A DNA stretch of 64,000 bases from Stenotrophomonas maltophilia (GTDB lineage: Bacteria > Pseudomonadota > Gammaproteobacteria > Xanthomonadales > Xanthomonadaceae): contig NZ_CP033877.1 of the NCBI RefSeq assembly GCF_006970445.1, forward strand, positions 1,744,750 to 1,808,749, read 5' to 3'. The notes below the pieces were generated by a model that had not been told where the DNA came from, did not search any database, and saw only the letters and a program-made list of their open reading frames with translations. A program made the translations under genes and the position numbers. Positions 20,201 through 33,367 of this stretch are shown piece after piece. The number at the start of each line of letters is the position of its first letter. Within the stretch, counting starts at the first letter, position 1.

Positions 20201-20375
20201 TGCAGGCGCCGAGGTGCGCTCGGTGACCGGTATCACCGTGTTCGCCGGCATGCTGGGCGTGACCCTGTTCGGCCTGTTCCTCACGCCGGTGTTCTACGTG
20301 GCCCTGCGCAAGTTCGTCACCCGCAACGGTGGTGGCCAGCTGGTGCAGCACGGCGAGCCGACCATCCACCACTGA
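17205..20375 (+). CDS. smeW: RND inner-membrane efflux pump SmeW
   Basis: A 1056-residue HAE1-type resistance-nodulation-division transporter, the drug/proton antiporter of SmeVWX. MDFSRFFIDRPIFAAVLSIV is the canonical first helix. Twelve membrane segments flank two large periplasmic loops. The proton-relay Asp pair sits in LAIGIVVDDAIVVVENVERNI (near residues 400-420) and LMGLACKNAILIVEFARELE in the second half. Published substrates of SmeVWX include quinolones, chloramphenicol and tetracycline. A very long antisense frame opposite this gene is a coding shadow. Confidence 0.95.
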   Translation: MDFSRFFIDRPIFAAVLSIVIFAAGLITIPILPISEYPEVVPPSVVVRTVYPGANPKVIAETVATPLEEAINGVEGMMYLKSVAGSDGVLQMTVTFRPGTDPDAAAVKVQNRVAQAQARLPEDVRRQGVTTQKQSPTFLMVVHLTSPQGKYDTLYLRNYARLHVKDALARIPGVGDAQIFGGGDYAMRAWLDPDKVASRGLTASDVVRAMREQNVQVSAGQLGAEPLPNSQFLTLINAQGRLKTEKEFGDIVLKSGTDGEIVRLADVARLELGAGDYTLRSQLDGKNAVGIGIFQSPGANALEIRDQVISTMDEMQKTMPADVKYEAVYDTTIFVRDSIKAVVSTLLEAIALVVLVVILFLQTWRASIIPLIAVPVSVVGTFAALYLLGFSINTLSLFGLVLAIGIVVDDAIVVVENVERNIEEGLSPTAAAHQAMREVSGPIVAIALVLCAVFVPMAFLSGVTGQFYKQFAVTIAISTVISAINSLTLSPALAARLLKAHGAPKDAPSRLIDRLFGWVFRPFNRFFKSSSEKYERGVARILGRRGAVFVVYAILLVGTGVIFKLVPPGFIPTQDKLYLIAGVKLPEGSSIARTDEMLRKVAKIAQETDGVAHTISFPGLNALQFTNTPNTGVAFIPLKPFAERHGRTAAQINAEINQKIAGLQEGFAFAMMPPPILGLGNGNGYQMFIEDRGNLGYGALQNAVQAMQGTVAQTPGMAFPISSYQANVPQLDAEVDRVKAKAQGVQLTELFDTLQTYLGSAYVNDFNQFGRTWQVIAQADGPYRETVEDIGKLRTRNDRGEMVPIGSMVTIKQTFGPDPVLRFNGYPAADLAGEADPRLLSSAEAMNKLTEIAGKVLPVGMTTEWTDLSYQQATQGKAAFIVFPVAIMLAFLVLAALYESWSLPLAVILIVPMTLLSALFGVWLTGGDNNVFVQVGLVVLMGLACKNAILIVEFARELEMGGKGIVEAALEACRLRLRPIVMTSIAFIAGTVPLVLSHGAGAEVRSVTGITVFAGMLGVTLFGLFLTPVFYVALRKFVTRNGGGQLVQHGEPTIHH

Positions 20376-20439
20376 CATGGAACCCCGTCGTCGCCGGTCA
20401 TTGGCCGGCGGCGGCTTTCCCCTCACAAGGCATGCATCC

Positions 20440-21177
20440 ATGAATTCCCATCAGAACAAGATCGCGCTGGTCACCGGCGCCACCCGTGGCATCGGCGCGG
20501 AGACCGTGCGCCAGCTGGCCCAGGCCGGTGTGCACACGCTGCTGGCTGGCCGCAAGCGCGAGACCGCCGTGGAGCAGGCGCTGAAGCTGCAGGCCGAGGG
20601 CCTGCCGGTGGAAGCGCTGCAGCTGGACGTCACCGACGGCGCCAGCATCGCCGACGCCGTGCAGCAGGTGCGCGAACGCCACGGCCGCCTCGACATCCTG
20701 GTCAACAACGCCGGCGTGCTGCTGGAAAACCCGGCGCAGCTGCCTTCGGAGCAGTCGCTGGATACCTGGCGCCGCACCTTCGACACCAACGTCTATGCAC
20801 TGGTCGCGGTGACCCAGGCGTTCCTGCCGCTGCTGCAGCAGGCCAAGGCCGGACGCATCGTCAACGTTTCCAGCATCCTCGGTTCGCAGACCCTGCACGC
20901 CGATCCGGCATCGGGCATCTACGATTTCAAGATCCCGGCCTACAACGCCTCCAAGGCGGCGGTGAACAGCTGGACGCTGGCCCTGGCACACGAACTGCGC
21001 AGCTCGCAGATCAAGGTCAACACCGTGCATCCGGGCTACGTGAAGACCGACATGAACGGTGGCCAGGGCGAAATCGAAATCGCCGAAGGCGCGCGTTCCA
21101 GCGTGCAGATGGCACTGATCGGCCATGAAGGCCCGAACGGCAGCTTCACCTACCTGGGCGAGGTGCTGCCATGGTGA
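20440..21177 (+). CDS. smeU2: SDR-family oxidoreductase SmeU2
   Basis: A 245-residue classical short-chain dehydrogenase. All family motifs are present: TGATRGIG (cofactor loop, near residue 12), NNAG (near residue 90), the catalytic Ser in VNVSSILGS, and YNASK (near residue 167). Unlike SmeU1 it should be catalytically competent, probably NADP(H)-dependent from the Arg after the Gly motif. Its stop overlaps the smeX start by seven bases, showing tight coupling within the operon. Confidence 0.92.
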   Translation: MNSHQNKIALVTGATRGIGAETVRQLAQAGVHTLLAGRKRETAVEQALKLQAEGLPVEALQLDVTDGASIADAVQQVRERHGRLDILVNNAGVLLENPAQLPSEQSLDTWRRTFDTNVYALVAVTQAFLPLLQQAKAGRIVNVSSILGSQTLHADPASGIYDFKIPAYNASKAAVNSWTLALAHELRSSQIKVNTVHPGYVKTDMNGGQGEIEIAEGARSSVQMALIGHEGPNGSFTYLGEVLPW

Positions 21178-22592
21178 TCCGCACGTTGGCGATGGCCGTC
21201 TCCAGCCTGGTGCTGGCAGGCTGTGTCAGCGTCGGCCCGAACTACAAGGCCCCGGCGCAGGAGCCGGTGGTCCTGCAGAGCGCACAGCAGCCGGTGTTCA
21301 GTACCGTCTCGCCGGTGGCCAGCTGGTGGGCGCAGTTCGATGATCCGGTGCTGGAACAGCTGGTGCACGGCGCACTGTCGGACAACCTGGATCTTCGCGT
21401 GGCCGTGGCCCGCGTCAGCCAGGCCCGCGCGGTGTTCGTCGAAAGCCGCTTCGACCAGGCGCCGCACATCACCGCGGGCGGCAGCTACGACCGCCGCAAG
21501 CAACCCGATCCGCAGCTGGGTGGGCAGCGGGTGTTCAGTGAAAGCTACCAGCTCGGCTTCGACGCCGGCTGGGAGCTGGATCTGTTCGGCCGCAAGCGCC
21601 GTGCTGCTGAAGCCGCGCGTGCCGACCTCGGTGCCGAGCAGGCCAACCTGGCCGACGCGCAGGTACTGGTCGCCGCTGAAGTGGCACGCAACTACTTCGA
21701 GCTGCGGGGTACGCAGAAGCGCATCGCGGTGGCCCAGCACACGCTGGAAAACCTGCGCGATACGCAGAAGCTGACCGAGGCGCGCTGGGAACTGGGCGCA
21801 GGCAGCGAGCTGGATGTGCAGAGCAGCCGTGCCCGCCTGAAGGCGATCGAGGCTGACATCCCATTGCTGGAAGTGTCCGAGGCGCAGTCGCGCAACCGGC
21901 TGGCCGTGCTGCTGGGCCAGCGCCCGGAAGTGCTGACCGACATGCTCGCACCGCATGACGTACCAGCCTTCGCCAAGGCGCTGCCGCTGGGCGATACCCG
22001 CGAACTGCTGCGCCAGCGCGCCGACGTGCGCGTGGCCGAGCGTCGCCTGGCCGCCGCGACCGCACGCGTGGGCGTGGCCACCGCGGACCTGTTCCCGCGG
22101 CTGTCGCTGTCCGGCTTCGTCGGCTTCCTTGGCGGCGATGCCAGTGGCCTGGTCAATGGCAACAACAAGGCCTGGTCGCTGACCCCGTCGCTGAGCTGGG
22201 CGGCATTCGACTTCGGTACCGTGCGTGCACGCCTGCGTGCCAGCAAGGCTGAGGCCGAAGGTGTGGCAGCACAGTATGAGCAGGCCGTGCTGCTGGCCCT
22301 GGAAGACACCGAGAACGCGCTGACCCGCTATTCCAAGCAGCAGGCACGGTTGGCGATCGTGGTCGAGCAGGCGCAGGCGGCACGGCGTGCCGAATCGCTG
22401 GCGCAGATCCGCTATCGCGAGGGCTCGGAAGACTTCCTGACCCTGCTGGATGCGCAGCGCACGCAGCTGGCCGCCGATGATGCGTTGGCAGCGGCTGAGT
22501 CCGAAGTCAATGTCAGCGTGGTGGGCGTGTACAAGGCGCTGGGTGGCTGGGGGCAATCACCGCAGCAACCGAGCGTGGCGCAGGTGCAGTAA
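21171..22592 (+). CDS. smeX: outer-membrane efflux channel SmeX
   Basis: A 473-residue TolC/OprM-type outer-membrane factor. The lipobox LVLAGC is followed by the NodT-family start VGPNYKAP. Two repeats of the outer-membrane efflux protein domain follow, each with long Ala/Arg/Gln-rich helices, for example LDLRVAVARVSQARAVFVES. It completes the SmeVWX tripartite pump. A hairpin terminator follows at 22601-22632. Confidence 0.94.
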   Translation: MVIRTLAMAVSSLVLAGCVSVGPNYKAPAQEPVVLQSAQQPVFSTVSPVASWWAQFDDPVLEQLVHGALSDNLDLRVAVARVSQARAVFVESRFDQAPHITAGGSYDRRKQPDPQLGGQRVFSESYQLGFDAGWELDLFGRKRRAAEAARADLGAEQANLADAQVLVAAEVARNYFELRGTQKRIAVAQHTLENLRDTQKLTEARWELGAGSELDVQSSRARLKAIEADIPLLEVSEAQSRNRLAVLLGQRPEVLTDMLAPHDVPAFAKALPLGDTRELLRQRADVRVAERRLAAATARVGVATADLFPRLSLSGFVGFLGGDASGLVNGNNKAWSLTPSLSWAAFDFGTVRARLRASKAEAEGVAAQYEQAVLLALEDTENALTRYSKQQARLAIVVEQAQAARRAESLAQIRYREGSEDFLTLLDAQRTQLAADDALAAAESEVNVSVVGVYKALGGWGQSPQQPSVAQVQ

Positions 22593-22600
22593 CCACAGCA

Positions 22601-22632
22601 GGGGACGGAGGCCATGGCGTCCGTCCCCTTCT
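22601..22632 (+). terminator. terminator of the smeU1VWU2X operon
   Basis: GGGGACGGA pairs with TCCGTCCCC across a ten-base loop, nine bases after the smeX stop, followed by TTCTGCTTT. The inner GGCCATGGC-like loop can extend the stem. Confidence 0.75.
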
Positions 22633-22636
22633 GCTT

Positions 22637-23014
22637 TCAAGGCCAGTGGTTGGCCGGGGTACCACGCTCGCGCATGCGCACGACGCAGAAGCGGTGTCCA
22701 CTGGGTGCCTCCATCACCCACCAGCGTTTGACGAAGCCGATGCGGCGCGCCCCCAGCTTCTCGAGGCGATCCGCCTCGGCATCAATGTCGTCGCTCTCGA
22801 TATCCAGGTGCACCCGTGACGGGTGCTCGACACGCTGGACTTCCACGTTCAGGCCTGCAGGTGCGCCCAGCAGGTCGGCATATTCGGCGCCCCCTTCGAC
22901 GCGCGCCGGTTGCGCCTGCAGCCCAAGTGCGGCGGCCCAGAAGCGGGCACCTTCGTCGGCCGGAAGGTCCTGGCAGTCGATGATGAATCCAGCCAGTCGG
23001 CTCTGGTGTGCCAT
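22637..23014 (-). CDS. VOC-superfamily (glyoxalase-like) protein
   Basis: A 125-residue vicinal-oxygen-chelate protein. AGFIIDCQDLPADEGARFWAAALG is the first betaalphabeta module and VHLDIESDDIDAEADRLEKLGARRI the second. EAPSGHRFCVVR is the closing strand, usually carrying a metal ligand, though the Glu ligand pattern is only partly clear. Members include glyoxalase I, fosfomycin-resistance proteins and non-catalytic binding proteins, so no reaction is assigned. It is convergent with smeX. Confidence 0.82.
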   Translation of the reverse strand: MAHQSRLAGFIIDCQDLPADEGARFWAAALGLQAQPARVEGGAEYADLLGAPAGLNVEVQRVEHPSRVHLDIESDDIDAEADRLEKLGARRIGFVKRWWVMEAPSGHRFCVVRMRERGTPANHWP

Positions 23015-23155
23015 GTCCTGCTCCGCAGTTCGGGGGTACGAGGCAGGGTAGCGCGGTGCGGTCTGCGTACCCCTTCACGTTCGTGACGTTTCTGACTCTG
23101 CCGAAACGGGAGCCCGCCGTGTAACTAGTGGGTCAGGTACTTGCGAGGACAGGCG

Positions 23156-23419
23156 ATGGCGGACGGAAGGCGGGATACCCAACGGATGTTGTTCGGCGAT
23201 CCGGGCCCACCAGGTGCGGGGCTGTCGGTGGCGGTCGTGGTGCTGCTGGTGCTGGCGACGATGGCCGCCGCGGTCGGTTTCCTGCGCCTGCAGGATTCGA
23301 TGCTGGGGCTGGGCCTGATCGGCGTCGCCGTGTTCCTGGCAATCGGGGCCCGCATCTGCCAGGCGCGCGATCAGCACCAGGCGCTGTATCGCCTGCTGTC
23401 GCGGCAGCCGCCGCTGTAG
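23156..23419 (+). CDS. small two-helix membrane protein
   Basis: An 87-residue hypothetical protein beginning MADGRRDTQRMLFGD. After a soluble Pro/Gly-rich stretch there are two membrane segments, SVAVVVLLVLATMAAAVGFL (about residues 25-45) and LGLGLIGVAVFLAIGARI (about 50-68), then a basic cytoplasmic tail. ATG 23156 is taken over an upstream in-frame start because of AGGACAGG just before it. No family is recognised. Confidence 0.6.
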   Translation: MADGRRDTQRMLFGDPGPPGAGLSVAVVVLLVLATMAAAVGFLRLQDSMLGLGLIGVAVFLAIGARICQARDQHQALYRLLSRQPPL

Positions 23420-23438
23420 CCGCGGCTGCCGTGAGGAG

Positions 23439-24296
23439 TCAGTGCTTCGGCCAGTCCAGTTCGACCACCAGCGGGAAATGATCCGATGGCAGCACGCCAT
23501 CGATGCGGCGGTCATCGGTCAGGAAGCTGCGCGCATGGAAACCGCGCACCAGCACCCAGTCCAGCTGCACGGTGGCTTTGCCGGTGAAATCATGGAAGGT
23601 CAGTCGCGGGCCCTGCGGTGTTTTCACCTGGGTCCGGGTGTCGTGCAGCACGCGGGTGAATGCCTTGTAGGTATCGCCCCCGGGCTCGCTGTTGAAGTCT
23701 CCGGTCAGCACCACCGGCAGATCGGCCGGCACGCTGGCCAGGCGCTTGCCGATCAGCTCGGCACCCTTTACCCGACGTGGCTCGTCCTCGTCGCGGTAGG
23801 GCAGGTGGGTATCCATGAAATAGAAGCGGCGGCCGTCGTCGATGCGGCGGAACAGCGCCCAGGTGACCATGCGCGGATACAGGTTGCCCCAGGTGATGCT
23901 GCCGGGCACATCAGGCGTGTCGGACAGCCAGAAGTTGCCTGATTCCTCGATCGCCAGCACCTTGCTGTCGTAGAACACACCCATGTGCTCGTCGCTGCTG
24001 CCGCCGCGGCGGCCCTCGCCGAACCAGCGGTAGCCGGGGAGGTGTCCGGCCAGGTACTCGGCCTGCTCCTGCACCAGCTCCTGGGTGCCGATCACTGCCG
24101 GGTGCGCGTCGAGGATCACCTTCACCATCGCATCGCGACGGTCGGGCCAGCGCTTGCCGGGTTCGGTATCGGCCGGGGTGCGCACATTGAACGACATCAC
24201 CTTCAACGGTGCGGGGGCTGCGGCCCAGGCGCTGGTCACAGGCAGGGCAAGCGCCAGCAGTGCAGAAAGCGCGGGGCGACGAAAACACGACAACAT
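23439..24296 (-). CDS. secreted endonuclease/exonuclease/phosphatase-family hydrolase
   Basis: A 285-residue exported protein of the EEP fold. The signal ends ALPVTSAWA. Metal and catalytic residues are seen in MSFNVRTP (Asn), GTQELVQEQ (Glu), DTHLPY, LTGDFNSEPGGD and SDHFPLVVEL, the full set for this superfamily. Secreted members act on phosphodiesters, sphingomyelin or sugar phosphates; the substrate is unknown. A LacI-type operator lies 18 bases upstream of the start, suggesting regulation by sugar availability. The longer upstream frame is rejected because the signal peptide fixes the start. Confidence 0.85.
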   Translation of the reverse strand: MLSCFRRPALSALLALALPVTSAWAAAPAPLKVMSFNVRTPADTEPGKRWPDRRDAMVKVILDAHPAVIGTQELVQEQAEYLAGHLPGYRWFGEGRRGGSSDEHMGVFYDSKVLAIEESGNFWLSDTPDVPGSITWGNLYPRMVTWALFRRIDDGRRFYFMDTHLPYRDEDEPRRVKGAELIGKRLASVPADLPVVLTGDFNSEPGGDTYKAFTRVLHDTRTQVKTPQGPRLTFHDFTGKATVQLDWVLVRGFHARSFLTDDRRIDGVLPSDHFPLVVELDWPKH

Positions 24297-24313
24297 CGTG
24301 GAATCCCTCCATT

Positions 24314-24333
24314 CCATGAAAACGGTTTCATGG
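24314..24333. promoter_or_regulatory. LacI-family-type operator
   Basis: CCATGAAA-ACGG-TTTCATGG: 8-base perfect arms around a central CG, the symmetry and core typical of LacI/GalR operators. It is 18 bases upstream of the EEP-family gene start. No LacI-family gene is in the window. Confidence 0.6.
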
Positions 24334-24413
24334 AGCATCGCACGGAATGCCTGTTCATGGCTGTGCGTGCGCTGGCGGTATCCGCCGGTCGCCGCGGCGT
24401 ATTCAGCAGGGCC

Positions 24414-24483
24414 TTGACAGCGTATTGACCCGCCGGCCCGGGCCTGCGTGCTAGAACGGCGTTGCCGGCCACTGAACCCGGCA
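24414..24483 (+). promoter_or_regulatory. leader region of precursor peptide A
   Basis: TTGACA at 24414 and TTGACC at 24425 are possible -35 elements; the -10 is weak (TGCTAG near 24449). A leader hairpin follows, TGCCGG (24463-24468) with CCGGCA (24478-24483). The equivalent place upstream of peptide B also holds a GC hairpin. Confidence 0.3.
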
Positions 24484-24524
24484 CCGCAGCAACAACCCTC
24501 AACGGAACCACAAGGAGCTGTGCC

Positions 24525-24626
24525 ATGACACGATTGATTCGCGCCCTGCAGGTGTCGCTGAACCTGCGTTTGGACAATTCCACGCAGTGCATCCGTTCCA
24601 AGTATCGCTACTGGAATATCTTCTGA
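24525..24626 (+). CDS. putative RiPP precursor peptide A (33 aa)
   Basis: ATG 24525 with AAGGAG seven bases upstream encodes 33 residues: leader MTRLIRALQVSLNLRLDN and C-terminus SKYRYWNIF. It is 72 bases upstream of a cytochrome P450 gene. The leader matches peptide B at 27725 (R-x-x-RAL-x-VSLN), and six of the seven identical residues of RAL-VSLN use different codons in the two genes, so selection acts on the peptide. The C-terminus has Y27-x-x-W30-x-x-F33, a suitable target for P450 cross-linking. A hairpin separates it from the P450. The precursor role is inferred; a regulatory leader peptide is the main alternative. Confidence 0.7.
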   Translation: MTRLIRALQVSLNLRLDNSTQCIRSKYRYWNIF

Positions 24627-24655
24627 CCGGAAGGACTCCAGTATTCGATGACATC

Positions 24656-24684
24656 GCCAGGGAAGGTCGATGATCTTCCCTGGC
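24656..24684 (+). other. hairpin between precursor A and its P450
   Basis: A perfect 10-base stem, GCCAGGGAAG with CTTCCCTGGC, and a 9-base loop. It lies between the peptide stop and the P450 ribosome-binding site, without a following T tract, so partial attenuation or transcript stabilisation is more likely than full termination. Confidence 0.6.
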
Positions 24685-24698
24685 ATCGGAGACAGGGC

Positions 24699-25925
24699 AT
24701 GGATGAGCGTGCAGCGGATGCGGAAGTGGTTTCCATCGACGACCTGCTCGAACGCGTGCGTCGCGAAGGGCCGGTACTGCGCTTCAACAATGATGTTGTC
24801 GGCATCTTTGATCCGGCCCTGGCGGTCAGGATCGACAAGGCCAACACCGACCAGCACACCGTACCGGATTCACTGATTGATTTTCTTGGGCTGCGCAGCG
24901 CCAGGGATCCCGTCGCATGGCGCGAGGTGCGGGCACTGCTGAGCGAGCAGGCCGGGCGGCTGGCCAGTGCCGGGCATATGCGCGACCTCTACACGCGCAT
25001 GCACGGCTTCCTGGCCCAGCGTGCGGATCGGCCGCATGACCTCAGCGAACTGAGCTGGTGGACGATCTCGCAGTCGCTGTTGCCGCTGCTGATCGATGGC
25101 CTGAGCCGTGCCGACGTCGATGCCCTCATCGGCGAACAGAAGACCCGATACAACGCCATCGTGCTGCAGAACTTCTCGTTCTGGCGGCGGATCATCGATT
25201 TCCATCTTTCCCGCCGCGCGGCCCGCACGGTGTCACGGCACATCCGCCGCCGTGCGCGCGAGACCATGCCGCGCGAGGACTTCCTGCAATCCCTGCTTCC
25301 GCTGGTGGAACGGGTCGGGGTGGATCGTGTGGCCTATCTGGTGTCGATGGTGCTGGCCGGTATGTCAGGCCTGCCTGGCATCACTGCGGCCAGCCTGCTG
25401 TACGCGATGCACCGTTTTCCGCACTGGCACGCCCGCATCCGTGAGGAAACCTCGGCGCTGAGCCTGGAGCAGCTGTACGCGCTGCCGATCAAGTCGTTGC
25501 CGTGCACGTCGCGCTTCGTCAAGGAAACCCTGCGGCTGTGGCCGGGACTGTTCGCCCTGCATCGTCCGGCCTCGCACGATATCGATATCGAGGGCGTGTG
25601 CATCCGCAAGGGCGGGGCGTACGAGTTGTCGTCCTACTTCCAGCATCATTCGCCGGAGTACTGGCAGAACCCGGACAGCTTTGATCCTGATCGCTGGTTG
25701 CCCGAGCGACGCCAGGCCAACAAGGGCGCGTACGTGCCCTTCGGATTCTCCTCGCGGGCCTGCATCGGCAGTGCGGTCGGCCATGCGCAGTTGCTCTTGT
25801 TCTGTGCGCTGGTGACCCGCGATTTCGAGTTGACGGTACAGGCTGATCCAGCACCGTGGATGCAGCTGGAAGGTTTTGCCATTCCGGTCGACTTCATCGG
25901 TACGTTGACGCCGCGGCGCAGCTGA
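24699..25925 (+). CDS. cytochrome P450 A, paired with precursor peptide A
   Basis: A 408-residue soluble cytochrome P450. ExxR is KETLR (E276, R279) and FDPDRWLPER follows. The heme Cys is C355 in PFGFSSRACIG, where the usual second Gly of FGxG is Ser. The I-helix reads AGMSGLPGITA (220-230), lacking the normal acid-alcohol (D/E-T) pair. ATG 24699 is chosen over 24648 because GGAG lies seven bases upstream and the N-terminus then aligns with P450 B (both have REGPVL near residue 24). Together with the upstream peptide it suggests an aromatic cross-linking tailoring enzyme. It is convergent with the LuxR-type gene. No ferredoxin is adjacent. Confidence 0.88.
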   Translation: MDERAADAEVVSIDDLLERVRREGPVLRFNNDVVGIFDPALAVRIDKANTDQHTVPDSLIDFLGLRSARDPVAWREVRALLSEQAGRLASAGHMRDLYTRMHGFLAQRADRPHDLSELSWWTISQSLLPLLIDGLSRADVDALIGEQKTRYNAIVLQNFSFWRRIIDFHLSRRAARTVSRHIRRRARETMPREDFLQSLLPLVERVGVDRVAYLVSMVLAGMSGLPGITAASLLYAMHRFPHWHARIREETSALSLEQLYALPIKSLPCTSRFVKETLRLWPGLFALHRPASHDIDIEGVCIRKGGAYELSSYFQHHSPEYWQNPDSFDPDRWLPERRQANKGAYVPFGFSSRACIGSAVGHAQLLLFCALVTRDFELTVQADPAPWMQLEGFAIPVDFIGTLTPRRS

Positions 25926-25945
25926 CAGTGACCGCAGTACTTGGC

Positions 25946-26650
25946 TTAGTCTTCAATCTCGCCACGGCGGGCTGCCGCGCGCACCGCCTGCGCGGTGGTG
26001 GCTACGCCGAGCCGTTGTCGCGCTCGCCGCAGGTGGTTCTCCACCGTGCGTGCAGACAGCCCCAGCGTGGCCGCGATTTCAGCCTGGCGCCGCCCGGCGG
26101 CGACCCAGCGCAGCACCTCGCGTTCGCGTGCGCTCAGCGCGCCTGCGGGAACATCCGCCGGCGCTTCGGCGAGCCGCCGCGCTGCACGGAAGGCTGACGT
26201 TCCGACCATTTCCAGCAGCAGGCGCGCGCTGGCGGACGCATCAATCGAGGTGCCGGCGAAGCTGACCGCACCCTCCAGGCCGGTCGGGCCGAACGCCGGC
26301 ACCTGCAACCCATGCAGGCCATCGCCGCGCGGCTGCTTCACCACCTGATAGCGTTCGCCGCGCACGCCCTGGCGCTTGCTCCAGAAGAACGGCGCATTGC
26401 TGTCCAGTACATGGCGGTTGACCGGGCAGGCGTGCAGGTAGCGGGCGAGTTCGGTATCGCTGCCGTCGCCGAACCAGTCACCCTCGATCCAGTACACGCG
26501 CTGCGCGTCGCGTTCCAGCCCGGTCCCGGTGGCAAACACCAGCAGTCGATCGTAGCCCAAGGGTGAGGCGGCGGCGCGCAGCACGCCGCCCACCGCAGGC
26601 AGTGACCGCGCCTGTTCCAGTTCCAGCAGCGCGGGCACCAGCGCAGGCAT
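25946..26650 (-). CDS. LuxR-type regulator
   Basis: A regulator of about 234 residues. The C-terminal helix-turn-helix is LSAREREVLRWVAAGRRQAEIAATLGLSARTVENHLRRARQRLGV. The N-terminal half resembles an autoinducer-binding domain (YWIEGDWF...RYLHACPVNRHVL...FFWSKR), but where AHL receptors have the Asp-Pro pair it reads Cys-Pro, so the ligand may differ. It sits in the order hchA then this gene, and lies between two peptide–P450 pairs. Start 26650 is chosen because it follows the hchA stop closely; Met at 26674 is possible. No luxI homologue is in the window. Confidence 0.85.
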   Translation of the reverse strand: MPALVPALLELEQARSLPAVGGVLRAAASPLGYDRLLVFATGTGLERDAQRVYWIEGDWFGDGSDTELARYLHACPVNRHVLDSNAPFFWSKRQGVRGERYQVVKQPRGDGLHGLQVPAFGPTGLEGAVSFAGTSIDASASARLLLEMVGTSAFRAARRLAEAPADVPAGALSAREREVLRWVAAGRRQAEIAATLGLSARTVENHLRRARQRLGVATTAQAVRAAARRGEIED

Positions 26651-26654
26651 GGGC

Positions 26655-27527
26655 TCAGCGCCCCGCCAGTGCATCGAGCAGCGTACGCGCGGCCAGCTTG
26701 CCCAACGCGTTGCCGGCCAGCGGACTGTCGCCGGTCAGCAGCAGGCGATCCTGCAGCACGCTGCCATCGATGCCTTCATTGACGATCTGCACGCCCTGCT
26801 GGGCCAGTCGTTCACCGAAGAACCAACGCAGCTGCCCCGGCATGTAGCCGATCTCCGGTGTCTGCCGGTCCATGGCGTCGGGGAAGGCACAGATGCGGTA
26901 GCCACGGAACAGCGAGCCACCATCGGCTTCGTCGACGCCCGCCGCCAGCAGCGCCGCCGGGCCATGGCAGAGGGTGATGATGTGGCGCTGCCTGGCCATG
27001 GCCCACTGCAGCGTGGCTTTCACCGCCGCGCTCTCCGGCAGGCCGATCAGTGCGCCGTGGCCACCGGGAATGAATACGGCGGCATAGTCCGAATCGGCTC
27101 CCAGGCCGGCCACCACCTCGTCCAGTTGCAACGGCTGGCGGAAGCGCGCCTCGTAGCGTTCGTACAGTGCGCCGATTTCGCGGTCCTCGTGCGGGAAGGC
27201 CCACCACTCGAACTTGACGGCGTTGCCGGACAGCGTCGCCACGTCGATGTCGAAGCCGGCCTTGTCCAGGTGGTACATCGGCAGCAGGGTTTCCACCGGA
27301 TGGTTGCCGGTGGAGAACAGATGGCCATTGGCGGTCGGCAGATAACGCTCGTCGGCGGCGATCATCAGCACCTTCCAGCGGCCATCGCGGCGCGCATCCG
27401 GATAGTCGGCCCCGGACAGGTCGCTCCTGGGCGAGGTGAACTGCGACAGCGAGTACGGCGACGGGAAGAAGGCATCGCGCTCGGCCGGATCTGGGCTGGG
27501 CTGGCGGCTGGGCTCTTGCGTGTTCAT
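26655..27527 (-). CDS. hchA: Hsp31-type glyoxalase III / protein deglycase
   Basis: A 290-residue DJ-1/PfpI-superfamily protein matching HchA: VLMIAADERYLPTANGHLFSTGNHPVE, DYAAVFIPGGHGALIGLPES and the nucleophile elbow ITLCHGPAALL with the catalytic Cys. It converts methylglyoxal to lactate without glutathione and has holdase chaperone activity. The start has GGAGG five bases upstream. The LuxR-type gene follows after its stop, likely in one transcript. It lies back-to-back with precursor B. Confidence 0.92.
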   Translation of the reverse strand: MNTQEPSRQPSPDPAERDAFFPSPYSLSQFTSPRSDLSGADYPDARRDGRWKVLMIAADERYLPTANGHLFSTGNHPVETLLPMYHLDKAGFDIDVATLSGNAVKFEWWAFPHEDREIGALYERYEARFRQPLQLDEVVAGLGADSDYAAVFIPGGHGALIGLPESAAVKATLQWAMARQRHIITLCHGPAALLAAGVDEADGGSLFRGYRICAFPDAMDRQTPEIGYMPGQLRWFFGERLAQQGVQIVNEGIDGSVLQDRLLLTGDSPLAGNALGKLAARTLLDALAGR

Positions 27528-27642
27528 GCGGACCTCCGTTGGGGGAAAGTGAGCCCAGCATAGGAGGCCGCGTGCGCAGGCGCGATGAGGGATTCCCCTC
27601 AATCGGCCGCAACCCGGATGCTGCAGCGCGCCACCCGTCCGG

Positions 27643-27695
27643 TTGGACAGCGGGATTATGTCGTGTTATCTAGCCGGTGCCGGGATAATCCCGGC
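27643..27695 (+). promoter_or_regulatory. promoter and leader palindrome of precursor peptide B
   Basis: TTGGAC (27643-27648), 17 bases, TTATCT (27666-27671) form a reasonable sigma-70 promoter. Just downstream is GCCGGGAT-A-ATCCCGGC (27679-27695), a near-perfect palindrome that could be an operator or a leader hairpin before the ribosome-binding site. Confidence 0.45.
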
Positions 27696-27724
27696 ATAAC
27701 CACACAGCAGGCAAAGGAGTGAAA

Positions 27725-27823
27725 ATGAAAAGATTCGCCCGAGCATTGCGCGTCAGCCTCAACATCCATCCGACCGAGAAGAGCAGTGTGTGGACTGTCT
27801 GGCAGATCTGGGTAGAGTTCTGA
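27725..27823 (+). CDS. putative RiPP precursor peptide B (32 aa)
   Basis: ATG 27725 with AAAGGAG five bases upstream encodes 32 residues: leader MKRFARALRVSLNIHPTE and core-like SVWTVWQIWVEF. Aromatics fall every third position: W23, W26, W29 and F32. The leader is shared with peptide A and the C-terminal W-x-x-F end is identical in pattern. A strong hairpin and a P450 gene follow, as for peptide A. The peptide ends on the last aromatic residue with no follower segment. Modification by the adjacent P450 is inferred from pairing and from known P450-tailored RiPPs. Confidence 0.72.
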   Translation: MKRFARALRVSLNIHPTEKSSVWTVWQIWVEF

Positions 27824-27862
27824 TTCCACGGCGTCATACCCGCGATTGATCTGCAGCAAGAC

Positions 27863-27888
27863 GAAGGGACTCGTCTTCGAGTCCCTTC
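27863..27888 (+). other. hairpin between precursor B and its P450
   Basis: A perfect 11-base stem, GAAGGGACTCG with CGAGTCCCTTC, and a TCTT loop, ending just before the P450 ribosome-binding site. It is the positional counterpart of the hairpin at 24656-24684 but unrelated in sequence. Confidence 0.65.
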
Positions 27889-27906
27889 TTGCCGGAGGCG
27901 TACTTC

Positions 27907-29130
27907 ATGCAAGGGACGTCGAACGAAGGCAGTACAGTTGCTGCCGAACGCCTGGCCGCGCGCGTCGAGCGCGAAGGGCCGGTATTGAAGCTGGAAACCG
28001 GCGGCGTCGGGGTGTTCTGCCCGGAGCTGGCCGGCAAGGTCGACAAGGAAAATTCCGAACACCTGTATGTAATCGAATCGCTGGCCGACCTGTTCCGGCG
28101 GCACGAGCGCGTGCGCTGGACCGAAGTGCGTAGCCTGATTGCCACGCGCAGTGCCGAACTCACCAGTGCACAGAATCTGGATGCGTTGCAGTCGCGCATG
28201 CGGCAGGCGCTGGACGCAGTGTGCGGGCATGAACTGGATGCGACGCCGGCAGTATGGAAGGTCATGGCCCATCCGTTGATCCCAATGGTGATCGACGGGC
28301 TGGATGCACGGGGACGCGCCGCCATAGAGCGTGCGCTGCATCTGCGCTATTCCATCCAGGTCGAGCAGGTCATCCATCGGCGCGACCTTCTGCGCAATTT
28401 CCTGATCAATCGTGCCGAGTCGCGCACGATTCATTCCGAACTGAAGCGGCGCGTGCGCGATGGCCGTGCTCCGCTGGACTACGCGCAGTCATTGCTGACC
28501 CTGCGCGAGCGCATCGGCCTGGACAAGGTTACCTACCTGGTCACCGTGCAGCTGATCGCCATTTCCGGGGTGCCCGGCATGATGGCCGCCTGCCTGCTGC
28601 TGGCGATGCAGATGCATCCACACTGGCGCCAGCGCATCGAGGAGGAATTCGCGCCGCTCTCGGATGCGGAGATCCATGCGCTGCCGATGGCCAGGATTCC
28701 CTGCACGATGCGCTTCCTGAAGGAAGTGATGCGGCTGTATTCCACGCCCTTCAACAACCGTCGGGTGGCCGCCTGCGATCTGCAGGTGGAAGGGCAGGCC
28801 ATCGCCGAGGGCACGGTGTTCGAGCTGAGCTCGTTCATCCAGCATCGCTCGGCAAAATACTGGGATGACCCGCTGCAGTTCGATCCCGATCGCTGGCTGC
28901 CCGAGCGGCGCAAGCGCACCGCCGGCATCTATGTGCCTTATGGCTTCCCCACGCGCTCGTGCGTGGGGTCAGCGGTGGGCAACGCACAGCTGGTACTACT
29001 GTGTGCGCTGCTCGCACGTGAATTCCGTTTCACCCCCAGCGCCGGCTACCGGCCCGAGGTGCGCATGGAAGGCTTCGCGATTCCGGCGGCGCTGCACGGC
29101 ACGTTCTCGCGGCGTTCGGCCGGTGCCTGA
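27907..29130 (+). CDS. cytochrome P450 B, paired with precursor peptide B
   Basis: A 407-residue P450 clearly paralogous to P450 A (shared REGPVL, SG-x-PG, PHW, FDPDRWLPERR, GSAVG, EGFAIP). ExxR is KEVMR (E273, R276). The heme Cys is C352 in PYGFPTRSCVG: the first aromatic is Tyr and the fourth position Pro instead of Gly. The I-helix IAISGVPGMMA (217-227) lacks the acid-alcohol pair, as in P450 A. ATG 27907 has GGAGG eight bases upstream; a TTG at 27889 is rejected. Convergent with the hydrolase gene downstream, so the unit ends here. Confidence 0.88.
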   Translation: MQGTSNEGSTVAAERLAARVEREGPVLKLETGGVGVFCPELAGKVDKENSEHLYVIESLADLFRRHERVRWTEVRSLIATRSAELTSAQNLDALQSRMRQALDAVCGHELDATPAVWKVMAHPLIPMVIDGLDARGRAAIERALHLRYSIQVEQVIHRRDLLRNFLINRAESRTIHSELKRRVRDGRAPLDYAQSLLTLRERIGLDKVTYLVTVQLIAISGVPGMMAACLLLAMQMHPHWRQRIEEEFAPLSDAEIHALPMARIPCTMRFLKEVMRLYSTPFNNRRVAACDLQVEGQAIAEGTVFELSSFIQHRSAKYWDDPLQFDPDRWLPERRKRTAGIYVPYGFPTRSCVGSAVGNAQLVLLCALLAREFRFTPSAGYRPEVRMEGFAIPAALHGTFSRRSAGA

Positions 29131-29147
29131 TCTGTCGGGACCGAGGC

Positions 29148-31169
29148 TTACCTTCCCGTTCGCCCGTGTTCCTGCATGTCCTCATGCAGGATCCGCCGCA
29201 GCTCGACGATGGCCGGCGTGGCTTCCTGCACGCTGTGCCCGGACACGATCACCTTCTCCGAATCCGCGTGCGGCAGGTGCGAGCTCCAGTAGGGCACCAG
29301 CCCGTCATCGGTCTTTTCCAGCGGGCCATCGGCCTTGGCGCGGGCGATGATCGAGTGGTAGTGCACCTTCGGTGACATCGGCAGATCGGCCACGGCGCGG
29401 ACGAACGGGTCGTCCTTGTCCAGGTTCTGGATGCTGTTCATCTGGTAGCCGTGCTTGCCATCGTTGCGATCGATCTGGCCGTCGTTGGCCAGTGTCGCCA
29501 CGTCTTCCAGCACGGTCAGCGGCAGCCGTACCAGGCGGCCGATCCAACGGCCGAGGCGGGTGCCGGCCACGTCGGTGCCGCGATGCGGCGTGGCGATGAA
29601 CACCACCCGCGATACCTCCGGTTCCGGCAGGAAGGTCAGCACCGGCGCGCCCTTGGTCCGCAGCAGCTCGCGCTGGGCGGGCGTCATCTGCGCGGTGGCC
29701 AGCAGGGTGTCGACCAGGTGGTCGCCGGAGGAAGAGACCATCAACCGCGAGATCACCCCGCCCATGCTGTGCCCGACCAGCACCATGTCATGCGAGGCCT
29801 GAGCCTTGCCGCTGGGATCGAAGTGCTTGAACACTTCGGCCAGCGTGTGGCGCATCGCATCGTGGCTCATCGCGATGGGCATGTTGGTCGGGTAGTAGAA
29901 CTGCCAGACCTGGAAGTCCTGGCGGATCTCGTCGTCGCGCATCAGTTCGTTGGCCACGTTGACCCAGGCTTCCGGACTGCTGGCCAGGCCATGGATCATC
30001 AGCAGCACACGGCGGTTCGGGTCGTAGGGTTGCATCATGTACAGATGCGGCGTGTCGATGCCGCCCTTGCCACCAAACAACGAGCGCAGCGACTGGTGGC
30101 TGAAGTTGGAGCGTGCCAGCCACAGCGCATAGCCGGCAGTGAAGTTGGCCGCCAGTGGCACCTGCTGGCCGTGCAGGGTCACTTCCGAGACCTGGTAGGG
30201 ATCGTGGATCTCCAGTTCCGGCTCGTCGTCGTGCAGCACTTCCCACAGGTTCTTTCCCGAGAAGCGCAGCAGCACCGTCATCGAAGGCGAGGGCATCTCG
30301 CTCCAGCTCTGCGCGGCCGAGGTGCTTGCCTGCGCGGTGGGTGTCGTTGCCGAAGGCGGGGTGGCCGTGCTGCCGGCCGGGTCGTCCATCACCGCCACCA
30401 GCTCGGCACCGAAGCCATCGCGGCGATGCACGCTGCGCAGCGTGCCGGTGAAGGACAGCGAGGCCGCCGGTACCAGCTCGGTAGGGGTACGCGTATCCAG
30501 CGGTGATGCTTCGCCTGAAGGGGCCAGCACGAAGGTCCAGCGGCCCAGCTGGAAATGGCTGGCCTGGCTGTGCACGCGGCCGGTGGCATACGCGTTGTAC
30601 AGCTGCACCGAGGCTTCCTGCACAGCCAGGTTGTAGTAGTCGCGCACCTGGGTCTGGCGGTCTTCGAAACCACGCTGGTTGGCGGTGCGTTCGGTGAAGA
30701 ACAGATAGGCATAGGCCTGGCGCGCGACCTGCATCCAGGCGTCCAGCCGCGGCTGGAAGTCGGCATCCAGCTCGGTGATCGCGGTCTTGGCGCGGCCGGA
30801 TGCCGAGTACTCGCGCTTCGGCGCCGGCAGGGTCATCGCATACTGCAGCCACAGCTCGGCCAGGCTGGAGCGCTTGTCTTCCTCGCGCACCACGATGCTG
30901 CCTTCCATCGCCTCGATGCAGGGCAGGCCAGGCTTGGCACAGACGCCCTCATCGAGCCCGGCCACGCGCAGGGTCTCGGTCGTCGCCGCGCTGAGCTTGC
31001 CGGTGGTGAGGATGTCACCGCGCTTGAGCGCGATGTACTGGCCGGGCGTGACCGAGGCAACCTGCACCGACGGTCCGAACTGGCGCAGCGTCGCGCAGCC
31101 GCCCAGGGTGAGCAGCACGGTGAAAATGAGGGTCGTGCGGCCGATGAAGCCCAAGCCCGTGGTAGCCAT
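29148..31169 (-). CDS. alpha/beta-hydrolase lipoprotein
   Basis: A 673-residue envelope protein. The signal peptide ends in the lipobox TLGGC. The N-terminal half (about 350 residues) is unfamiliar. The C-terminal half is an alpha/beta hydrolase with the oxyanion segment LLMIHGLASSPEAW, the nucleophile elbow VLVGHSMGGVISR and IATPHRGTDVAG, resembling triacylglycerol-lipase or esterase folds. The catalytic His may lie in VSGHSVQEA near the C-terminus. Substrate unknown. It converges with P450 B 18 bases apart. Confidence 0.82.
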   Translation of the reverse strand: MATTGLGFIGRTTLIFTVLLTLGGCATLRQFGPSVQVASVTPGQYIALKRGDILTTGKLSAATTETLRVAGLDEGVCAKPGLPCIEAMEGSIVVREEDKRSSLAELWLQYAMTLPAPKREYSASGRAKTAITELDADFQPRLDAWMQVARQAYAYLFFTERTANQRGFEDRQTQVRDYYNLAVQEASVQLYNAYATGRVHSQASHFQLGRWTFVLAPSGEASPLDTRTPTELVPAASLSFTGTLRSVHRRDGFGAELVAVMDDPAGSTATPPSATTPTAQASTSAAQSWSEMPSPSMTVLLRFSGKNLWEVLHDDEPELEIHDPYQVSEVTLHGQQVPLAANFTAGYALWLARSNFSHQSLRSLFGGKGGIDTPHLYMMQPYDPNRRVLLMIHGLASSPEAWVNVANELMRDDEIRQDFQVWQFYYPTNMPIAMSHDAMRHTLAEVFKHFDPSGKAQASHDMVLVGHSMGGVISRLMVSSSGDHLVDTLLATAQMTPAQRELLRTKGAPVLTFLPEPEVSRVVFIATPHRGTDVAGTRLGRWIGRLVRLPLTVLEDVATLANDGQIDRNDGKHGYQMNSIQNLDKDDPFVRAVADLPMSPKVHYHSIIARAKADGPLEKTDDGLVPYWSSHLPHADSEKVIVSGHSVQEATPAIVELRRILHEDMQEHGRTGR

Positions 31170-31309
31170 ACGATCCTCCTGCGCGGTGGCGCCACTCTAG
31201 CGGCCGGCCTGTCAAAGCGGAATAGACCGGGTGGTCGGTTTGGGCCTGGCCGCCGTGGGCGATTCAGCCATTCCCGTGTGACACTGCGGTGAATGGAAGT
31301 GACACGGTG

Positions 31310-31777
31310 ATGGCGATGGCCTGGCTGGAAACCCGCATTCCCCCGCCCGTGGTGATGCTGCTGTGCGCCGCTGCAGGCTTTGCAGCACGCTGGCTGCTGC
31401 CGGGTTTCCACCTTCGGCTGCCGGTGCCGGTTCTGCTGGCAGGCGTGATGATGACGCTGGGTATCGTGCTCAATCTGCTGCCCAAGCTGTCGTTCCAGCG
31501 CGCCGGTACCACCGTCAATCCTCTGCGACCTTCGGCGTCGAGCGCGCTGGTTACCAGCGGAATCTACCGCCGCACGCGAAATCCGATGTATCTCGGGCAG
31601 GCGCTGGTCCTGTTTGGGGCCATGGTGTACCTGCAGAACCTGATCGCGCTGCTGGTGGTGCCGCTGTTCCTGGTGTACATCACCCGGCTGCAGATCCTGC
31701 CGGAAGAGCGGGCACTGATGGCCCGCTTTCCCGAGGCGTACGCGCAGTACCGCCATCGCGTGCCGCGCTGGCTGTAG
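31310..31777 (+). CDS. ICMT-family membrane methyltransferase
   Basis: A 155-residue membrane protein of the isoprenylcysteine carboxyl methyltransferase / phospholipid methyltransferase group. Four hydrophobic helices are visible. The SAM-binding signature is present as SGIYRRTRNPMYLGQ, with the C-terminal EERALMARFPEAYAQYRHRVPRW. Bacterial members methylate lipids or small molecules; the substrate here is unknown. ATG 31310 with GGAAG upstream is preferred to GTG 31289. Confidence 0.85.
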   Translation: MAMAWLETRIPPPVVMLLCAAAGFAARWLLPGFHLRLPVPVLLAGVMMTLGIVLNLLPKLSFQRAGTTVNPLRPSASSALVTSGIYRRTRNPMYLGQALVLFGAMVYLQNLIALLVVPLFLVYITRLQILPEERALMARFPEAYAQYRHRVPRWL

Positions 31778-31791
31778 CGTCGGCTACGCCA

Positions 31792-32274
31792 TCAGCGGCT
31801 GATCTGGCACTTCACCGCTGCCGAATAGCCCTCGTAGTCGTCGCCCGCGATCACGTGCAGGGTGTGGCGCTTGTCGATGCGCTTCACGTACGACGGCTCT
31901 TCGGTGTTGGCATGCTCGTTGACCTCGGTCACCGACCAGGCCTTGGCCAGGCGCTTGGAATCGACGCCGTTCAAGTACACGAAGAGGCTCTTCTCGCCCT
32001 CGGCCACGTTTACATCGGCACTGGTGACCGTGCCGCCAAACAGCGCGACCGGCTTGTCCTCCGGCTCGAAGGTGCCGCCTGGCTTCTTGGCCAGGCCAGC
32101 CGCCTGCAGCGCATCGATGGCTTCGGCTGCACTGAAGTTCGAGCCGGCCTTGCAGGCCAGCAGCGCTTCCAGCGTGGCAGTGCCGGGTGGGGCGATGGCC
32201 GGTGCCGCAGCGCGCGCGACTGGGACCGCGACGAGGGCAGTGAGGAGCAGGGAAACCGTGAGGGCAGCTTTCAT
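31792..32274 (-). CDS. secreted hypothetical protein
   Basis: A 160-residue protein with a signal peptide (MKAALTVSLLLTALVAVPVARA). The mature region begins with a Pro/Ala-rich linker, then TLEALLACKAGSNFSAAEAIDALQAAGL and ends EGYSAAVKCQISR; the two Cys, one near each end, could form a disulfide. AAGGATC lies six bases before the start. No family is recognised. Confidence 0.7.
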   Translation of the reverse strand: MKAALTVSLLLTALVAVPVARAAAPAIAPPGTATLEALLACKAGSNFSAAEAIDALQAAGLAKKPGGTFEPEDKPVALFGGTVTSADVNVAEGEKSLFVYLNGVDSKRLAKAWSVTEVNEHANTEEPSYVKRIDKRHTLHVIAGDDYEGYSAAVKCQISR

Positions 32275-32301
32275 GGCAGATCCTTCTGATGGGGGCAGGA
32301 A

Positions 32302-32748
32302 TCAGAACGCCGGTTCGATTACCGGGAACTCTTCAGCGGAGGAGTAGAGGCGATACGCCTGCGTGGCGCCGGCGCGGACGTTGATTTCGGTCGAGCGCCG
32401 ACGGGAATTGTTGGTCTTCTCCGATTGCAGCACGCCGCACAGGCCCCGCCCCTGGACAGGCGTGGCGGTCAGTACGTGGCGCCCCTCGGCCAGGACAAGG
32501 GACAGGCGCTCGGCGGGGTCGAGGTGTGCGGCCATCTTGCCGTCGACCATGACGCCCATGTAGCAGCCGCTGCCCACGAATCCGACATCGCGGGTGATCG
32601 TGATGGTGCCCGTGGGTTCACCCTGGGCATCGATCGGGAAAATGCGCGCGGCCGGAGCATCCTTGATCTGCTCGGGCGACGCCTGCTTGGTGGGCATGCA
32701 GCCGGACAATGCGGCAATCAGCAGGGCAGGGACGAGCAGCTTCTTCAT
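32302..32748 (-). CDS. hypothetical lipoprotein, paralogue of 32951-33367
   Basis: A 148-residue lipoprotein (lipobox AALSGC). Its core, TITITRDVGFVGSGCYMGVM...LDPAERLSLVLAEGRHVLTA...GLCG, aligns with the divergently transcribed neighbour (INVTRDKGFAGGGCSFDIL...LKPGESVSMHVVPGTYFLKL...GLCQ). Both keep two Cys that may pair. AAGGAAG precedes the start. The PEGA-like beta-sandwich look (short strands ending in a carrier-type GTY/GRH) is only an impression. Function unknown. Confidence 0.72.
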   Translation of the reverse strand: MKKLLVPALLIAALSGCMPTKQASPEQIKDAPAARIFPIDAQGEPTGTITITRDVGFVGSGCYMGVMVDGKMAAHLDPAERLSLVLAEGRHVLTATPVQGRGLCGVLQSEKTNNSRRRSTEINVRAGATQAYRLYSSAEEFPVIEPAF

Positions 32749-32950
32749 CGCAATTCTTCCTTGGCGGAGATCGGGGTCTCGATGGCCGGAATGATGCAAT
32801 GAAAAGGGCCTGGAGTTACAGCCTTCCAGGCGTGCGGGGACGAAGATGGCCGGAACCCAGTCGTCACGGGATCCGGCTTCTTGCCTCGGACGGGCAAGTT
32901 TTCCTTGAACTTGTCGGCCGGGTAGACTCGCAGGCCTACAGGGAGGACGC

Positions 32951-33367
32951 ATGAAGAAGATTTCGGCTCTGGGGTTCTTGGTCCTACTTGCCACCGGATG
33001 TTCCTCAACGGCAGTAGCCCCAGGGACAGCGAAGGCTGTGTCAGCCGGTCGGTTGTACGACGCCAGTTACCTTGAGAGCAGTCCCGATCGCTCTGCCACC
33101 ATCAACGTGACTCGTGATAAAGGATTTGCGGGCGGTGGCTGCTCGTTCGACATCCTGATAGACAACCAGAAGGTCGTTGCGTTGAAGCCAGGCGAATCGG
33201 TCAGCATGCACGTGGTGCCTGGAACTTACTTCCTAAAGCTTGAGGCCGGTGGCGGTCTTTGCCAGAACGTTTCAACGTTCCAGAACTTGACGGTCGCTGC
33301 TGGCGATGTCCTGGCCTATCGCATCTCCTGGCCCGCCGGTGGACGGCCAACGATGGAGCGGCAGTAG
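32951..33367 (+). CDS. hypothetical lipoprotein, lower GC than neighbours
   Basis: A 138-residue lipoprotein (lipobox LLATGC) with GGAGGA before its ATG. It is a divergent paralogue of the lipoprotein at 32302-32748. Its third positions are visibly less GC-rich than the surrounding genes, and it ends close to the ssrA 3' end, a common site for acquired DNA, but no integrase or attachment repeat is seen. Function unknown. Confidence 0.72.
   Translation: MKKISALGFLVLLATGCSSTAVAPGTAKAVSAGRLYDASYLESSPDRSATINVTRDKGFAGGGCSFDILIDNQKVVALKPGESVSMHVVPGTYFLKLEAGGGLCQNVSTFQNLTVAAGDVLAYRISWPAGGRPTMERQ

Follow-up and report, generated by a model that had tools for sequence, protein, structure and literature searches.

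P450-only RiPP clusters are sought as a source of rigid cyclic peptides, and the rules by which a core is matched to its enzyme are still open. In the parts of the published accounts that are drawn on here, P450s are described that link Trp i, through its C7, to N1 of Trp i+3, and others that join Trp C2 to a backbone nitrogen or Trp C3 to N1 of Trp i+2 (PMC11002830). ScaB cross-links WxxW cores and, in the portion of its account used here, accepts 11 of 13 additional precursors (PMC12352619), and the excerpted descriptions of the atropopeptides include members in Xanthomonas also (PMC11450843, PMC12352619, PMC11002830). None of the open-access literature titles listed concerned P450-modified RiPPs in Stenotrophomonas, including S. 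maltophilia, or in Lysobacter. Work of Hu et al. from 2023 and of Liu et al. from 2024 may include P450 RiPP clusters of Stenotrophomonas or Lysobacter.

The window, by which we mean the whole stretch of 64,000 nucleotides that was analysed, is part of the 4.55 Mb single-contig genome of a Stenotrophomonas maltophilia strain (G000 C1:1744750-1808749). It contains two short precursor genes with one P450 gene beside each, both pairs falling within 4.6 kb (Table 1). We consider it quite probable that peptide B is a P450-modified RiPP precursor which is matured by P450 B and carries rings between Trp residues at i and i+3, and a cross-linked RiPP function is likely. The bacteria with such modules include S. 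maltophilia. The genes of each pair run head to tail, with 83 bp between those of B and 72 bp between those of A, and both enzymes match PF00067 (P450 B with an E value of 1.1e-26 in Pfam). The position of AAGGAG makes the ATG the credible start for peptide B; a GTG at 27719 overlaps the AAGGAG. An earlier note on this DNA had drawn attention to the i, i+3 spacing of W23, W26, W29 and F32 in peptide B, which can be read directly from the translation, and to a leader, R-x-x-R-A-L-x-V-S-L-N, which is indeed present in both peptides. The C-terminal W-x-x-F is also common to the two. The closest relatives of P450 B in named records come from S. maltophilia, S. sepilia and an uncultured Stenotrophomonas (8 loci; family Lysobacteraceae); these overlap the genome set, L010 having the coordinates of G044 and L006 those of G048, and were left out of the counts.

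Table 1. Features of the two precursor-P450 pairs and their surroundings (positions in the window)
Feature	Position	Strand	Description	Basis
Peptide A	24525..24626	+	33-residue precursor, MTRLIRALQVSLNLRLDNSTQCIRSKYRYWNIF; leader motif as in peptide B, core SKYRYWNIF	
Hairpin A	24656..24684	+	between peptide A and P450 A; sequence unrelated to hairpin B	
P450 A	24699..25925	+	408 aa, partner of peptide A	ORF, PF00067, comparison with P450 B
Palindrome, putative SmoR box	27586..27601	.	TGAGGGATTCCCCTCA; -59 to -74 of hchA, just beyond the edge of the B cassette; the peptide B ATG follows after about 124 bp	
B cassette	27607..29162	+	missing in the relative G053	blastn of 20001-33000
Probable promoter block	27643..27671	+	TTGGACA...TGTTAT...	
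Palindrome, possible operator or leader hairpin	27679..27695	+	GCCGGGATAATCCCGGC; promoter block to ribosome-binding site	
Ribosome-binding site of peptide B	27714..27719	+	AAGGAG	sequence
Peptide B	27725..27823	+	32-residue precursor, MKRFARALRVSLNIHPTEKSSVWTVWQIWVEF, ATG 27725 to stop ending 27823; leader with RALxVSLN, core ...SVWTVWQIWVEF	ORF and orthologue alignment
Hairpin B	27863..27888	+	GAAGGGACTCG-TCTT-CGAGTCCCTTC, 11 bp stem, between peptide B and P450 B; no U-run after	
P450 B	27907..29130	+	407 aa, predicted to cross-link peptides; SGVPG in the I-helix, C352 as Cys ligand	

Between the A and B modules lie two genes identified by Pfam, one of the DJ-1/PfpI type and one of the LuxR type, the latter encoding an autoinducer-binding domain. 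Going by the arrangement given in the part of the source used here, they would be hchA-smoR (PMC4432800), and the palindrome TGAGGGATTCCCCTCA, which sits between the divergent hchA and the B cassette, would be the SmoR box, an assignment made by its published position and not by its letters. Control of peptide B by SmoR or quorum sensing is a guess. Pair A has an outer-membrane efflux gene upstream of it, and P450 B is followed by an alpha/beta hydrolase gene on the opposite strand. The region just upstream, 20329-22592, has short-chain dehydrogenase and outer-membrane efflux protein genes, which we take to be an smeVWX-type efflux locus. Among the 10 neighbouring ORFs scanned no clear dedicated leader peptidase or exporter was found in the transcription unit of the pairs, the Pfam neighbour scan being one of the window's neighbours only; besides the P450s, or frames over them, the A and B loci of different genera had no further clear neighbour in common. 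An M16 protein as leader peptidase in the window genome was considered and set aside, the two matches there to the M16 peptidase of a C-type locus, each in a 973-aa open frame and with 31% identity at best, being too generic.

The block TTGGACA...TGTTAT..., which is probably the promoter of the peptide B operon, shows almost no change in 13 of the 15 B loci of Stenotrophomonas and has diverged in G027 and G074; a scan for consensus promoters found no site. Eleven of these 15 loci have the palindrome GCCGGGATAATCCCGGC in exactly this form; in G009 and G063 it is shortened by one base, in G027 it is altered, and in G074 both of its arms are altered (CAGGATAATCCTG). It is possible that the palindrome represents an operator or a leader hairpin.

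Comparison of orthologues proved informative about peptide B. Across 19 B-type loci from three genera W23, W26, W29, E31 and F32 are invariant and the NIHP block, E18, S20 and S21 are also fixed, and variation was seen at residues 24, 25, 27, 28 and 30, five of the six non-anchor positions from 24 to 31. Relative to peptide B of the window, dN and dS were 0.26 and 1.28 for G150, 0.11 and 0.72 for G061, and 0 and 0.11 for G009, with G048 (0.10 and 0.24) among the weakest cases; for G388, G178 and G224 dN was 0.33 and dS, at 1.8-2.8, saturated, and all these values are rough for a gene of 32 codons. The earlier note had argued for selection on peptide B because six of the seven shared RAL-VSLN residues use different codons in A and B. 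The codon count is correct (R CGA/CGC, A GCA/GCC, L TTG/CTG, V GTC/GTG, S AGC/TCG, L CTC/CTG, with N AAC in both), but codon differences between two paralogues do not carry that argument, and it is the orthologue comparison that shows selection. The precursor-P450 B module is real and under selection.

Among the genus genomes, 91 in all, the set with peptide-B DNA (E <= 0.01) coincides with the set of 15 encoding P450 B. Loss of peptide B from a genome that keeps P450 B, which the same note had named as evidence against the pairing, was thus seen in 0 of the 15, and the DNA search gave no orphan peptide-B gene in the other 76 genomes, although a much diverged copy could escape it. A P450 of the A/B family is present in 18 of the 91 genomes (B in 15, A in 11 and both in 8), with 73 having neither; three have A only (G038, G053 and G059) and seven B only (G009, G032, G044, G061, G082, G083 and G090). 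Peptide-A DNA matched 11 genomes, eight of them strongly and all eight with P450 A, the other three through 24-29 bases (E 0.004-0.009) in genomes without P450 A; the remaining P450-A genomes, G027, G059 and G074, have a diverged A-type precursor that was detected at the protein level.

Each cassette is present or absent as one unit. In G053 (A only) positions 27606 and 29163 of the window map to positions 5829 and 5807 of L074, the flanks lying 21 bases apart, and the site of the B cassette in G038 (likewise A only) is occupied by other DNA, about 1.1 kb long. Conversely, 24351-25947 is absent from G032 and G083 (B only), with 1.05 and 0.67 kb of other DNA in its stead. The two modules sit on separate contigs in G027 and G074, and what looked like a stop (one TAA) in the P450 B of these two genomes proved to be just a shorter C-terminus, the protein having 403 aa. 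In G009 (L035), where pair B is present, all that is left of P450 A is a match of 88 residues containing one stop, and no precursor of type A was detected; pair A appears to be decaying there on its own. P450 B is related to P450 A, as had been proposed, at 41% identity (166/406). A recent local duplication of A into B was rejected, since by identities and in the tree each P450 is nearer to P450s of the family from other genera than to the other. A and B are separate modules.

Outside the genus, a P450 profile matched 20 of 395 genomes sampled from the family at E <= 1e-50, five of them from Stenotrophomonas; it matched the window genome only among 369 genomes sampled from the class, and two genomes of the genus together with the C-type G1008 among 398 sampled from the phylum. 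B-like precursors of the form NIHPNE(K/T)SSLWK(T/V)WP(L/Y)WVEF were found at four loci in two other genera and A-like ones, QSIRSKYIYWILF, at two loci outside the genus. Because the precursor screens listed an ORF only if several aromatic residues stood close to its end, they favour aromatic cores. In a tree of 60 P450s, which was midpoint rooted for drawing only and has several long end branches, the 13 with A cores form one clade (100/100) and the 10 of type C another, and the 19 with B cores share one side of a 96/89 branch with 14 metagenome P450s for which no precursor is known. The four from B-like loci in other genera do not make a single clade. In Stenotrophomonas, the P450s with VWTVWQIW cores (G000, G045, G009 and G063) make up one subclade (91/97, just under the tool's star). 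Within Stenotrophomonas B the three core states need two changes on the P450 tree, the minimum possible, and V/I at residue 30 needs two against a minimum of one. Precursors and P450 clades pair like with like at all 32 A/B loci, and the conflict between the two trees that the earlier note had held to be damaging was not found, core type agreeing with P450 clade. It is plausible that each enzyme accepts only its own core.

The structure model of P450 B (pLDDT 88.5, pTM 0.88; 58-row alignment) is a full P450, and the PDB matches listed, the best 50, are solved P450s. A PDB profile search ranked 3dbg, presumably CYP170A1, and 7wzl first, the latter being CYP184A1 going by 7wzm in the structure match list. 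An acid-alcohol pair in the I-helix is a usual feature of P450s, with a role in oxygen activation. In P450 B this pair is replaced by Pro-Gly (I-helix residues 219-224). Pro-Gly stands at these positions in 42 of 42 aligned P450s with a known precursor and in 59 of 60 overall, the one other, P0076, having Pro-Ala and no known precursor; none of the 60 lacks ExxR or the Cys ligand. The Pro-Gly I-helix offers a marker for finding more such P450s and raises the question of the oxygen activation route. As a mark of every P450 in these clusters it had to be rejected, Val-Gly or Leu-Gly being found in all four second P450s of C loci.

A strong hairpin separates precursor and P450 at all 32 A/B loci. 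That of B is nearly identical throughout the 15 B loci of Stenotrophomonas, where its loop has 4 or 5 bases and G074 differs in a single base of one arm, the 13 A loci have a common hairpin of their own, and the four B-like loci L036-L039 have hairpins of other sequence. In the correctly cut spacers of the main fold set z ranged from -1.8 to -4.3 against mononucleotide shuffles, a range that excludes L036-L039, L026 and L033, folded without shuffles, L002, whose spacer was cut short, and L025, which overran. An alignment of six A hairpins, made without a seventh sequence (G063) that was misaligned by a base, had 97.4% of cells paired and three pairs changed on both sides (compensatory); the pair count was reached in 163 of 500 shuffles and the covariation score in 0 of 500. 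The lack of a U-run argues against a strong terminator at the B hairpin. The hairpin probably trims or shields the mRNA, which would leave the precursor in excess over the enzyme.

In the mechanism suggested here, the N-terminal ~20 residues of peptide B (MKRFARALRVSLNIHPxEKSS) would be a leader that docks on P450 B and the C-terminal VWxxWxxW(V/I)EF would be the core. P450 B would oxidise the bound Trp and join W23 to W26 and/or W26 to W29, by analogy with the Trp i to i+3 joining of cihunamides and atropopeptides. The bonds would be C-N or C-C and would close one or two small rings. F32 might act as the third partner or else serve for recognition at the C-terminus, and a housekeeping protease would then release the ring, with whatever bioactivity it may have. 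Pair A would be a sister module with a Tyr/Tyr/Trp/Phe core. To our knowledge Phe is not a usual partner of such cross-linking P450s, and the full i,i+3 ladder may therefore not be cross-linked. It is doubtful, though conceivable, that one P450 builds the whole W23-W26-W29-F32 ladder as a fused multicyclic rod, within a Pro-Gly I-helix superfamily that has a clade-specific core grammar (WxxWxxWxxF in B, YxYWxxF in A and WxWxxYH in C).

The same pair might also perform other Trp chemistry, such as hydroxylation, indoline- or furan-type fusion, or the formation of Trp-Phe or backbone bonds. The leader resembles the precursor family of hyalucidin A, the product of which is a benzofuranoindoline, the usual I-helix acid-alcohol pair is missing, and there is precedent, in the excerpt cited, for Trp-backbone and Trp i+2 bonds made by P450s (PMC11002830). 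However the core spacing is exactly i,i+3, like that of known Trp-Trp cross-linkers, there is a single P450 at A/B loci, and core B has no Tyr for a benzofuran, so that we regard such chemistry as rather unlikely in comparison with Trp i to i+3 rings. A quite different role, in which peptide B is a regulatory leader peptide and expression of the P450 gene is attenuated, depending on tryptophan, by means of its Trp codons and the hairpin after them, appears very improbable. Three TGG codons do precede an 11 bp hairpin, and a terminator scan lists one weak site in the peptide gene, at 27795-27815 (0.4 expected by chance). The intergenic hairpin, on the other hand, has no U-run, pairing between the peptide gene and the hairpin arms (7 and 6 bp) was reached by 75 and 150 of 300 shuffles and is at the level of chance, residues far from the Trp codons (RA, RV, NIHP, E, SS) are conserved equally, and the A peptides, with one Trp and two Tyr, also precede a hairpin.

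It may also be that the P450s are unspecific, the shared RALxVSLN leader letting either enzyme process either peptide. Since in Stenotrophomonas the genes of a pair are tightly linked, with less than 100 bp between them, and co-inherited, agreement between the trees would be expected even with promiscuous enzymes. The seven identical RAL-VSLN residues in A and B, this short distance between the genes of a pair in the window, and the promiscuity of ScaB towards 11 of 13 additional precursors, as far as the cited part describes it (PMC12352619), all fit this explanation. Against it, the cores differ, the P450s are only 41% identical, and either module is found without the other intact (3 A only and 7 B only of 91), and we hold unspecific enzymes to be possible but less likely than not. 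Two related pairs with a shared leader and unlike cores, together with natural variants of B in three genera, make the question of leader versus core open to swaps.

A third type of locus, C, extends the comparison. Its precursors (MKK-/MKR-...W(R/H)W...YHNI-like) were found at nine family loci and one in another family of the class, and at these 10 loci a short precursor with a WRWVxYHNI-like core stands before a P450 in the layout of A and B, the P450s being distant. In the clusters L063-L067 (G151, G384, G309, G103 and G1008) as many as three precursors stand in tandem, with WRWVxYHNI or a like sequence at the end. These five C loci were read at 14 kb, with a simple picking of ORFs by which genes may be missed; a second P450 lies near the first in four (G384, G309, G103 and G1008), M16 peptidase genes are present in four (G151, G384 and G309 by Pfam, G103 by similarity only), and G1008 has an ABC transporter. 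By their gene content the C loci look like RiPP clusters, and they are possibly hyalucidin-like, in Lysobacteraceae and one other family.

Yin et al. reportedly described hyalucidin A in Angew. Chem. in 2026 as a benzofuranoindoline that tandem P450s produce. NF053510, the model of the hyalucidin A precursor, matched 12 of 15 distinct precursors below its cut-off (E 0.00025-0.64, best 21.1 bits), one of the 12 also matching another model, and 10 shuffled precursor controls had no match of any kind. Peptide A matched at E 0.054; peptide B of the window had no NCBIfam match at E<=1, and one Stenotrophomonas variant and one C-type precursor were also without an NF053510 match. At a lax E <= 10 as many as 9 of 14 control genomes match the model, yet the window genome does not, so that weak genome-wide matches mean nothing. 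Among 20 family genomes matching at E <= 0.05 only G098 and G177 did so over the full model length, just upstream of a C-type P450. Membership of the hyalucidin A family was rejected, as the whole-protein cut-off of 35 bits was reached by none of the 15 precursors and in none of the 395 family genomes. The likeness consists in a short precursor with a similar N-terminus, P450-based RiPP chemistry and, in most C-type loci read, tandem P450s, whereas the A/B matches cover the leader only (ending at residue 16-20), with one P450 and a core B that has no Tyr.

Other known systems can be set beside the locus in the same way. PHROGs gave no matches. In line with the general description of a P450-modified RiPP, a short conserved precursor here adjoins, and co-occurs with, a P450. 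The aminopyruvatide enzyme ApyO (NF050147), a RiPP aromatic cross-linker, is among the best NCBIfam matches of P450 A and P450 B (4e-16), yet their scores of 58.6 and 58.5 bits fall well short of the cut-off, which is 525, the C-terminal YLYD is absent and there is no MNIO in the 10 neighbouring ORFs. Biarylitides, in the part of their description used here, likewise combine a minimal precursor with a cross-linking P450, but are pentapeptides with aromatics at positions 3 and 5 (PMC13417212), as against 32 residues and i,i+3 spacing here. The atropopeptides (among them bitryptides and cihunamides) differ in their KSLK leader motif, which, with the variants listed in the part of the source seen (PMC11450843), is absent here, and in having one WxxW in place of a WxxWxxWxxF ladder. 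In the stead of KSLK, EKSS stands before V/L-W in Stenotrophomonas and G150, and ETSS in G388, G178 and G224. As far as their excerpted descriptions go, they share with the present pairs a two-gene cluster, a precursor of about 30 aa, a WxxW core and a P450 (PMC11450843, PMC12352619, PMC11002830). The VW at residues 22-23 would fit the atropopeptide xWxxWx, with Trp at core position 2, if the core started there.
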